NCBI GenBank assembly: GCA_039683095.1
Contig: JBDKSB010000013.1
Location: forward strand, 62,001 to 126,000
Direction of reading: 5' to 3'
DNA from: Acidobacteriota bacterium
GTDB lineage: Bacteria > Acidobacteriota > Aminicenantia > Aminicenantales > Saccharicenantaceae
DNA length: 64,000 nucleotides
In this document: positions 25,480 to 28,221 of the stretch, piece after piece
Numbering within the stretch: the stretch's first letter is position 1
Layout of the letters: each line of letters begins with the position of its first letter
Notes under the pieces: model-generated
Told to the model about the DNA's origin: nothing
Databases searched by the model: none
Seen by the model: the letters and a program-made list of their open reading frames with translations, nothing else
Made by a program: the position numbers and the translations under genes

Positions 25480-25872
25480 CTATTCCAACCAGACCTTGAT
25501 GACGGCTCCATCGTCGCCCTTGATCTCGACGAGCGCCAGCGGCCCGGCCTTCTTCAGCGCGCTCCAGACGGCCTTGAGGTCGATCTCGCAGCAGTCCTCG
25601 TCGAGCTTGAAGCGCCGGCAGTCCTTCGAGCCGAGGACGGCCTCGATGAGGGCGACGGGCAGGGTGATCCTGACGCCGGCCTCGCCCGAGCCGGCGTCCT
25701 GGATCGTGACCTTGAGCCAGCGGGGCTCCCGGTCCCGGCTCCTCTCGGGGGCGGGAGAGTTCTTCACGGCGTTCTGGATGACCCGGAAGTCGTTGCGCCT
25801 GGCGGCCCCGGCCGGGACGGCCGGGACGGCGACGCTCAGGATGAGAATGGCCGCGAACGCTGTCCTCTTCAT
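25480..25872 (-). CDS. Exported protein with C-terminal domain shared with its neighbour
   Basis: 130 residues from the ATG at 25872, with GGAGG upstream. A signal peptide of about 22 residues (MKRTAFAAILILSVAVPAVP) is followed by a linker. The C-terminal ~80 residues begin RWLKVTIQDAGSGEAGVRIT and end GDDGAVIKVWLE. That segment aligns along its length with the C-terminal domain of the next gene upstream (25895-26758), so the two are paralogous in this part. The pattern (a beta strand, an I-P-hhLA helix, a second helix, then an acidic turn and strand) resembles the SHOCT-like/LiaX-type domain of Bacillota, from memory only. Function unknown; probably envelope-located and last in the sigma-factor operon. 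Confidence 0.7.
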   Translation of the reverse strand: MKRTAFAAILILSVAVPAVPAGAARRNDFRVIQNAVKNSPAPERSRDREPRWLKVTIQDAGSGEAGVRITLPVALIEAVLGSKDCRRFKLDEDCCEIDLKAVWSALKKAGPLALVEIKGDDGAVIKVWLE

Positions 25873-25894
25873 GACGATCCTCCTTGTCTCTCCG

Positions 25895-26758
25895 TCAATC
25901 GATCCAGATCTCGATGACCGAGCCATCCTCGCCGGCGATGCGCAGGAGGCTCTCCTTGGACTTGGCCAGCTCGCTCATTATCTTGGCGATGTCGTAGCCC
26001 TTTTTGCGCATGGCCGCCTTGGCGTCCTCGTCCATGGCGTTCAGGGCCAGGTCGGCCAGGGCGAAGGGGATGTTGATCGAAAAGGCCGGTTCCTTCCGGC
26101 CGGCTTCCCGGATCCGGATCCGGAGCATGCGGACCGTCGATTCCACGCGGGGCTTTCTCTCCTCGGCCGACTTGAGGCTCTCCGGCGAGACGCGCAGCAG
26201 GGCGATGCGGGCCCGGTCGAGGAGCTCGGGGTCCTTCTCGGTCTCGACGACCCTCGCCAGGACGGGGGCGGCCTTGGCGGCCTCCTTCTTGTCGGAAACG
26301 AAGCTCAGCTTGTAGGCCGCGTAGTACCGGACGACCTTGTTCGCGTGGTCGAGCCGGCTCTCGATGTCCCGGAGGGCGGACTCGTCCCCGCCCTGGTACA
26401 GGTCGAAGGCCAGGTCGACGATCGAACCTTCCGATTCCTCGACGAGGCTGGGTTTGGCGTCCTCCAGCCGGATATAGCTCTTATAGGCCCGCAGGGCGTC
26501 CTTCTCCCGGCCGCCCATGCCGCTCAGGCACTCTCCCTTATAGAAGAGGACCTGGCCGGCCAGCGGGCTCGAGGGGAACTTGTCGATGAGCTCGTCGATC
26601 TTGTCGAGGGCCGCCGTCCAGCTCTTGTCGAAGACGAGGAGCTTGGCCTCGCGGAAGAGGGATTCATCCGTCGCCGCCTGGACGCTGGCCCTGAGGGAGG
26701 CCGCCTGCCCCAGCCCGAGAGCCAGGACCAGACAGAATGTCAGGGTGGTTTTTCTCAT
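25895..26758 (-). CDS. Exported TPR/HEAT-like repeat protein with shared C-terminal domain
   Basis: 287 residues. Signal peptide (about 1-24, MRKTTLTFCLVLALGLGQAA), then TPR-like helices (about 35-100; LFYKGECLSG, ALRAYKSYIRL). HEAT-like repeats follow (about 120-190; VVRYYAAYKLSFV, LLDRARIALLRVS). The C-terminal domain from about 208 begins RMLRIRIREAGRKEPAFSIN and ends GEDGSVIEIWID, homologous to the end of the neighbouring 130-residue protein. Its start lies one base after the stop of the membrane protein upstream, so it is translationally coupled to the sigma operon. Probably periplasmic; no known function recognised. Confidence 0.7.
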   Translation of the reverse strand: MRKTTLTFCLVLALGLGQAASLRASVQAATDESLFREAKLLVFDKSWTAALDKIDELIDKFPSSPLAGQVLFYKGECLSGMGGREKDALRAYKSYIRLEDAKPSLVEESEGSIVDLAFDLYQGGDESALRDIESRLDHANKVVRYYAAYKLSFVSDKKEAAKAAPVLARVVETEKDPELLDRARIALLRVSPESLKSAEERKPRVESTVRMLRIRIREAGRKEPAFSINIPFALADLALNAMDEDAKAAMRKKGYDIAKIMSELAKSKESLLRIAGEDGSVIEIWID

Positions 26759-26759
26759 G

Positions 26760-27566
26760 TCAGATCCCGCTTTGCAGTTCTTTCTTGACCAGGTTGATCT
26801 TGAGGAGAAGCTGGCGCTCCTCGACATAGCTTCGGATCCTCCCGAGCTCGGCGGCCGGCAGCTCGTTGTCGATCTGGGAGAGCTCGAGGAAGAGCGTCTC
26901 GATCTGGTCGCAGATGGCTTTGGCCTTGGCCATCTGGAGCGTCTCGAGCTGGGCGTTGAGGTATTTCTTCTTTTGCAGCAGGTCCCGGGCCCGTTCCGTA
27001 CGGACGGCCGCCGGCACGACGGGGCCTTCGCCGGCCGATTCGAAGACATCGAGGAGCACGTATTGGCTCTTCTCCAGGTAATCGAGCGTGTTCCGGCGGG
27101 CCATCTCGCGCTCGGCCCGGTCCAGGAATTCGCCGGAGGCGTAATAGGCGTCGTCGCGGCCCGGGCGCGAGCCCGGGGCCTTCAGGACGACGTACATGGC
27201 GACGGCGCCGACGGCCAGGCCGGCGGCCAGGCCGGCCAGCGCGGGCCGCATCCGGAAGGCCGCCGGCCAGGACAGGCGGGCCCGGGAGCGCGCCCTCCCG
27301 GGGACGGCCTTTTCTCCCCCGGCCATGGCCAGGCCGGCGATGATGGCCGGCAGGGAGTCCCAGTCGACCGAATCGGCCGCCCGGCGGATCTCGGCCCGGA
27401 CGGCCGCCGTCTCCCCGAGGAGCCGGTCGACGGCCGCGGCCGCCGCCCCGGCCCGGCTTCCGTGGCTGTTCCCCTTCTTTTCGTCCATCGCCTTTCTCCT
27501 TCCCTCCCCCGGTCCCTCCGCGAGGATGTCGGCCCACTCCGTCCCGGCCGTCTTGCGCCGGCTCAT
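26760..27566 (-). CDS. Putative anti-sigma factor (single-pass membrane protein)
   Basis: 268 residues from the ATG at 27566, overlapping the sigma-factor stop by ATGA. The layout is that of an anti-sigma factor: a cytoplasmic N-terminal ~105 residues, one transmembrane helix (about 108-128) flanked by arginines, and a ~140-residue extracytoplasmic helical domain (DLLQKKKYLNAQLETLQMAK). The N-terminal part has no cysteines, so it lacks the zinc-binding (ZAS) motif of most ECF anti-sigma factors, and no other known anti-sigma domain was recognised. The call rests on position directly after an ECF sigma gene and on topology. Confidence 0.6.
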   Translation of the reverse strand: MSRRKTAGTEWADILAEGPGEGRRKAMDEKKGNSHGSRAGAAAAAVDRLLGETAAVRAEIRRAADSVDWDSLPAIIAGLAMAGGEKAVPGRARSRARLSWPAAFRMRPALAGLAAGLAVGAVAMYVVLKAPGSRPGRDDAYYASGEFLDRAEREMARRNTLDYLEKSQYVLLDVFESAGEGPVVPAAVRTERARDLLQKKKYLNAQLETLQMAKAKAICDQIETLFLELSQIDNELPAAELGRIRSYVEERQLLLKINLVKKELQSGI

Positions 27567-28156
27567 GACTCGATCCCCAGGACCGGCGCCAGGCGCTTCC
27601 GGAGATTCTGGACGGCCTTGAAATGGAGGGACTTGGCCGTCCCGATCGAGATCTCCATGGCCTCGGAGATCTCGTTGAACTGGAGCTCGTTGTAATGTCT
27701 CATGATGAAGACCATCTTCTGGCGCTCGGCCAGCGTGTCCACGGACCGGGCGAAGGCCTGCCGCAGATCCGTGGCGGCCGAATCGCCCTCGCGGACCGGA
27801 TCGGCTGCCACCTGGATCTCGTCGACCGGCGTCGTCGTCTCCCACTCCCGCCGCTTCTTCCTGTTCTTGCGGTAATGGTCGATGCTGATGTTCTTGGCCA
27901 TCTGCAGGAGCCAGCCCTGGAACGAGTTGCCGGGCTTGTACATTCCGGCCTTCTGGTAGAGCCGGAGGAAGGTCTCCTGGACCGCGTCGAGGGCGTCTTC
28001 GCGGTCGCGCAGGATGGAGTAGGTCATGACGAACACCTTCCGCTGATAGAGCCTCGTGATCGTCATGAACGCCTCGCGGTCCCCGTCCCGGACCTTCTCG
28101 AGGAGCGCGGCGATCTCCGCCGCTCCGACCTCTTTTTCCACGGGGACTTCACTCAT
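27563..28156 (-). CDS. ECF (RpoE-like) RNA polymerase sigma factor
   Basis: 197 residues. Region 2 is clear: LYQRKVFVMTYSILRDREDA then LDAVQETFLRLYQ, with SFQGWLLQMAKNISIDHYRK covering region 2.4. A linker of about 40 residues leads to region 4 (TLAERQKMVFIMRHYNELQF, ISEAMEISIGTAKSLHFKAV), the -35-binding helix-turn-helix. No extra domain is present. It is first in a four-gene operon with the putative membrane anti-sigma factor and two exported proteins, suggesting control of an envelope response. The promoter seen at 28194-28221 looks sigma-70-like rather than autoregulatory. Confidence 0.93.
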   Translation of the reverse strand: MSEVPVEKEVGAAEIAALLEKVRDGDREAFMTITRLYQRKVFVMTYSILRDREDALDAVQETFLRLYQKAGMYKPGNSFQGWLLQMAKNISIDHYRKNRKKRREWETTTPVDEIQVAADPVREGDSAATDLRQAFARSVDTLAERQKMVFIMRHYNELQFNEISEAMEISIGTAKSLHFKAVQNLRKRLAPVLGIES

Positions 28157-28193
28157 GGGCCCTCATAGGGATCAACGAACCCGGACCGCCCAA

Positions 28194-28221
28194 AGTTTAC
28201 GCCTTCGCGAGACGATATCAA
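28194..28221 (-). promoter_or_regulatory. Promoter of the ECF sigma operon
   Basis: Minus strand: TTGATA (28216-28221), 16-base spacer, TAAACT (28194-28199), about 38 bases before the sigma start codon. It matches the housekeeping consensus; no ECF-type GGAAC/GTC pair is evident. Confidence 0.45.

Follow-up and report, generated by a model that had tools for sequence, protein, structure and literature searches.

A conserved ECF sigma factor operon of Aminicenantia encoding a predicted class I anti-sigma factor with a decayed zinc module and exported proteins that share an undescribed domain

The window analyzed here is a stretch of 64,000 nucleotides from an Acidobacteriota bacterium of the class Aminicenantia, whose genome comprises 3.29 Mb in 13 contigs and has Candidatus Aminicenantes MAGs as its nearest relatives. 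Within the window, four consecutive genes on the minus strand encode, in this order, an ECF sigma factor, a membrane regulator, an exported TPR/HEAT-type protein and a short exported protein. The locus is fairly likely to be a self-contained, autoregulated ECF sigma module equipped with a membrane anti-sigma factor and with periplasmic exported partners. In outline the mechanism is a standard one; what is new is the set of exported proteins and their domain, which each locus uses two or three times and of which we found no description.

The sigma factor gene (27563..28156, minus strand) encodes a protein of 197 amino acids that contains regions 2 and 4 only and leaves no room for regions 1.1 and 3, as expected for an ECF sigma factor. 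Both Pfam matches exceed their cut-offs (Sigma70_r2, 55 bits; Sigma70_r4, 44.6 bits), and the match to TIGR02937 reaches 93.5 bits against a cut-off of 42.9. The gene is constrained among near relatives (dN/dS 0.13–0.25), and it is one of approximately 20 sigma-70-family loci in the host genome. The regulator gene (26760..27566, minus strand; 268 aa) begins within the sigma gene, with its start overlapping the sigma stop by four bases in an ATGA sequence. It is followed by the gene of the TPR/HEAT protein (25895..26758, minus strand; 287 aa) and that of the short protein (25480..25872, minus strand; 130 aa, counted from the ATG that opens the signal peptide); both products carry a signal peptide in their sequence. 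The coupling of the four genes proposed in an earlier note on this DNA was thus confirmed, with all four frames open at these coordinates.

The block is conserved well beyond this genome. A profile search recovered the regulator family in 33 of the 34 family genomes and in 108 of the 142 class genomes, always in a single copy except for one class genome with two. A gene-order table, produced by a script run over ~120 loci, revealed the order sigma factor, regulator, TPR/HEAT-domain protein and short domain protein in most of them; among the 93 distinct class loci tabulated, nearly all keep the order of sigma factor, regulator and TPR/HEAT-domain protein, with or without the short domain protein and an additional domain lipoprotein upstream. 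This upstream gene, present ahead of the sigma gene in 33 class loci, bears the same shared domain, and the N-terminus of its product resembles a lipoprotein signal: a strict lipobox rule was passed by 22 of 36 sequences, and in most of the remainder a cysteine box is visible on inspection. The anti-sigma factor is hardly ever found without the TPR/HEAT-domain protein. The short gene is dispensable, since it is missing in two sister genomes (L010 and L055) that retain both the sigma factor and the regulator. Seven relatives retrieved through the sigma factor also retain the block, one of them without the short gene and another with different flanks, and the same arrangement was found in other Acidobacteriota families (loci L034–L044, L164 and L179). 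In a phylum sample of 199 genomes, all 16 class genomes with the regulator have the shared domain, and all five without the regulator lack it.

The earlier note had suggested that the exported genes belong with the sigma factor and had proposed a genome-wide search for the block. The counts above bear out this idea across the class and beyond, and the exact co-occurrence of regulator and domain in 21 class genomes contradicts the alternative raised there, that the exported genes are not conserved with the sigma factor. It is likewise barely credible that the exported proteins ride along as mere passengers of the neighborhood, their common domain reflecting nothing but a recent local duplication. 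The genes are indeed adjacent and compact, as such a reading would have it, but the same order recurs beyond the genus, the family and even the class, flanked by different genes, for example at locus L015, where the block lacks the leuC and sppA neighbors; the passenger explanation is already contradicted by this pattern. A tblastn search of plasmids returned no match, and among open-licence papers we found none on this operon.

A predicted ECF-type promoter, GTAAACTTT-N13-TCGT (28175..28200, minus strand), lies 18 bases before the sigma start codon and matches the motif GTRAACYTT-N13-YCGT exactly. Of 90 class loci, 57 carry this motif at the front of the operon, whereas about zero would be expected from simulation. 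In operons that open with the lipoprotein gene, the site precedes it; none of 33 intervals between lipoprotein and sigma genes contains the motif, nor does it occur within 237 kb of operon bodies. Seven of the 13 genus genomes contain a single exact copy of the motif, which in every case precedes the sigma gene. Such a pattern is that of an autoregulated ECF operon, and, because a conserved ECF-type motif marks the operon fronts, the operon is probably self-regulated, with its own sigma factor as the presumed reader of the site at 28175–28200. The resemblance of the motif to the general ECF consensus, in a genome with approximately 20 sigma-70-family loci, counts against this explanation.

The one further exact site in the host genome lies 49 bases ahead of a gene for a 66-aa membrane protein (G000:C9:79980-80177, plus strand; locus L192). 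This protein is present in 104 of 141 class genomes and has no Pfam match; a related site stands at approximately the same distance in most members of the genus and is absent from most other genera. Sites with one mismatch precede the genes of two DUF5916/CBM9 proteins, an HlyD-type adaptor and a DUF4097 lipoprotein in the host genome (L227, L228, L229 and L235). All of these are envelope genes, and the sites may mark a regulon or belong to other ECF sigma factors. We treat them as leads only, since many sites in the one-mismatch scan look coding or differ between sister genomes, and the same holds for any further target, given that the motif differs little from the general ECF consensus and that so many sigma-70-family loci are present in the host genome.

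The membrane regulator occupies the anti-sigma position, directly downstream of the sigma gene and coupled to it, and this adjacency is conserved in the relatives. Taken alone, its sequence matched no family model in Pfam or NCBIfam. Judged by descent, however, it is a class I anti-sigma factor of the zinc type that has decayed in the clade of the locus, because the zinc ligands are carried by most relatives, five of eight homologues match zf-HC2, a profile of 40 relatives matches solved anti-sigma domains (RsiW, E-value 3.9e-4; RskA, structure 3hug, E-value 7.1e-4; DdvA, E-value 1.4e-3), and up to 37 of 40 family members match NCBIfam anti-sigma models. The homology that defines the class I (ASDI) family is therefore found at the level of the regulator family.

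The ligands Cys4, His30, Cys34 and Cys37 are near-invariant in the 40–46 aligned sequences, and the alignment places R, K, S and S at these positions in the locus regulator, making residues 1–48 (27423..27566, minus strand) a degenerate zinc module. The earlier note had called the protein a non-zinc regulator, which holds for the locus protein itself, as it lacks the H-x3-C-x2-C motif and the N-terminal cysteine of zf-HC2 (PF13490), but not for its ancestry, which is that of a zinc-type class I factor with the motif present in most relatives. The motif is also lost in L009 and L053, L052 retains the histidine only, and in L055 the whole zinc segment is deleted; outside the genus, L108 has lost the motif and L094 lacks the histidine. 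On the tree, the distribution of the motif needs four changes, three of which are forced by well-supported branches. The loss is recent, lineage-specific and ordinary, and does not point to a regulator class of its own. In a published survey, the zinc motif is missing from about 44% of class I anti-sigma domains and from about half of the membrane-bound ones, and groups are often mixed (PMC7406223), which makes the loss mechanistically unremarkable.

The remainder of the regulator is well preserved. Helices 3 and 4 of the anti-sigma domain (residues 37–85; 27312..27458, minus strand) are retained and include Trp69, the tryptophan of a VDW motif in helix 4, which is invariant in 46 sequences. 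An AlphaFold2 model of the domain (pTM 0.42) places helices at residues 4–16, 19–33, 37–66 and 72–85, with a pLDDT of 93–97 over residues 41–80, so that helix 3 and most of helix 4 are predicted confidently; a Foldseek search with this model gave no structural match. In class I anti-sigma factors, helix 4 is the part that touches region 2 of the sigma factor, and helix 1 touches region 4 (PMC7406223). A single transmembrane segment, a hydrophobic stretch at approximately residues 107–128 (27183..27248, minus strand), is conserved in all homologues, and the predicted periplasmic helical part (residues 130–268; 26763..27179, minus strand) is strongly conserved.

Such decay raises the question of whether the regulator of this clade has lost its anti-sigma activity together with the zinc module, leaving the sigma factor constitutively active or controlled otherwise and the membrane protein maintained for a periplasmic function. 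We consider this unlikely. All four ligand positions have changed, the segment is deleted outright in L055, and residues 1–48 show a dN/dS of 0.40–1.07 in zinc-less pairs of near relatives versus 0.20–0.66 in zinc-bearing pairs, a contrast that is indicative only, since the pairs have branches in common and short segments were compared. However, helices 3 and 4, the invariant tryptophan, the membrane segment and the periplasmic part remain constrained (dN/dS 0.20–0.31 for the transmembrane segment and periplasmic part), the operon promoter is still conserved, and zinc-free domains are commonplace among class I anti-sigma factors, as noted above. In the favored reading, the anti-sigma factor of this clade would work with helices 3 and 4 and a remnant of helices 1 and 2.

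The two exported proteins share their C-terminal domain, as the earlier note had claimed. The copies, at approximately residues 208–287 of the TPR/HEAT protein (25898..26137, minus strand) and 50–130 of the short protein (25483..25725, minus strand), which consists mostly of this domain and has orthologues, align by BLASTP with an E-value of 3e-9 at 30% identity over 86 aa, and each reaches ~80 bits with a profile built from 54 members of the domain family. The assignment of the longer protein to the TPR/HEAT type was likewise upheld: the signals are weak in the locus protein itself, and TPR_6 and HEAT_2 are found in all eight homologues examined. In the model of the short protein, the shared domain is mixed alpha/beta, with strands and two helices (pLDDT ~80–93). 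Scans of the 54 members matched no Pfam model, NCBIfam likewise offered no model of the domain, and PDB sequences gave chance matches only. Foldseek of the whole 130-residue model of the short protein, including its poorly predicted N-terminus, against the PDB gave a best E-value of 0.13, with top matches at an rmsd above 10 and thus meaningless.

A likeness of the domain to the LiaX/SHOCT-like module, suggested in the earlier note, found no support: none of the 54 members matches a SHOCT-like, DUF2089 or DUF4097 Pfam model at E-values up to 0.5. The published description also sets the two apart, since SHOCT-like domains are bi-helical and predicted to be intracellular (PMC11237479), in contrast to the exported domain at this locus, which is mixed alpha/beta in the model. 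What is common to LiaX, SHOCT-like and Toastrack (DUF4097) proteins of Bacillota and the present system is a general envelope-response theme only. The BamD and YbgF (CpoB) families were rejected for the TPR/HEAT protein as well. These are exported periplasmic TPR proteins too, and the locus protein gives weak TIGR03302 and TIGR02795 scores, but it falls far below the curated cut-offs (18.8 bits versus 81.4 and 18.3 versus 90.1) and has a HEAT-like middle and an extra C-terminal domain.

Within the host genome the shared domain occurs at the four-gene locus only, and 81 of the 199 Acidobacteriota genomes sampled contain it. Other Acidobacteriota families encode exported proteins of ~190–240 aa with two copies of the domain (L162, L163, L165, L166, L168, L169, L170 and L172), often followed by a second similar gene. 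For most of them, the 8 kb read contained no sigma gene; the gene at L172 is divergent from a sigma-regulator pair. In family f30 (L175:2618-4207, plus strand; L167:3948-4808, minus strand), a TPR protein with the shared domain follows a sigma gene, and the single-pass membrane protein encoded between them lacks the zinc motif, giving a distant zinc-free version of the block.

The role of the exported proteins admits two readings. They could be output only, with no part in sensing, and it is quite possible, if somewhat short of an even chance, that they are the response, the module producing proteins that protect the envelope, and that the periplasmic domain of the anti-sigma factor reads the signal alone, via proteolysis. 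Autoregulated operons often carry their own effectors, which fits this reading, as does the persistence of the sigma factor and regulator in the sister genomes that lost the short gene. Moreover, other Acidobacteriota have the double-domain proteins without a sigma gene nearby, which indicates that the domain can work without this regulator. Against it stand the near-constant company of the TPR/HEAT-domain protein and the anti-sigma factor and the restriction of the domain to this locus within the host genome.

In the autoregulated module that we favor, the sigma factor would be held by the single-pass class I anti-sigma factor through its cytoplasmic helices, and the periplasmic helical domain would receive the signal, for which envelope stress is a reasonable candidate. 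The two exported proteins, or three in many relatives, one being a lipoprotein, would function beyond the membrane. Their most likely role is that of periplasmic partners that inform the anti-sigma factor about the envelope, or else that of the response, and the shared domain may be their means of communicating with one another. Once released, the sigma factor would activate its own operon from the conserved promoter, and perhaps also a small number of further envelope genes. A bolder version, offered only tentatively, is an undescribed envelope-sensing module, in which several exported proteins of one new domain type form a periplasmic relay that sets anti-sigma activity, and the anti-sigma domain, pared down in a single genus to a minimal form without zinc, remains able to inhibit its sigma factor.

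Several known systems resemble this arrangement in part. SigW-RsiW of Bacillus subtilis and other ECF/class I pairs likewise combine an ECF sigma factor with a single-pass membrane anti-sigma factor encoded after it and an autoregulatory-type promoter, and the RsiW structure is among those matched by the family profile; the locus differs in its regulator without zinc ligands, in another periplasmic domain and in two or three dedicated exported domain proteins within the operon. RpoE-RseA-RseB of Escherichia coli shares an anti-sigma domain independent of zinc, a membrane anchor and an exported partner in the same operon, but the exported partners at this locus, a TPR/HEAT protein and a new domain, are different, and no match to the RseB or RseC families was found at the locus. 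The operon content of RskA-SigK of Mycobacterium tuberculosis differs from this locus. RskA itself, whose structure is matched by the regulator family profile, belongs to the membrane-bound class I anti-sigma factors and works without a zinc motif (PMC7406223).

If this interpretation is correct, the locus would provide a well-defined candidate envelope response pathway for the widespread and largely uncultured Aminicenantes, with a predicted promoter that is directly testable in a laboratory strain. The shared domain, absent from Pfam, NCBIfam and the PDB yet distributed across the phylum, poses a question of function with a clear genetic handle. Finally, the series of regulators within a single genus, from an intact zinc motif to a deleted module, offers a natural experiment that can show how much of a class I anti-sigma domain, and which of its parts, is needed.
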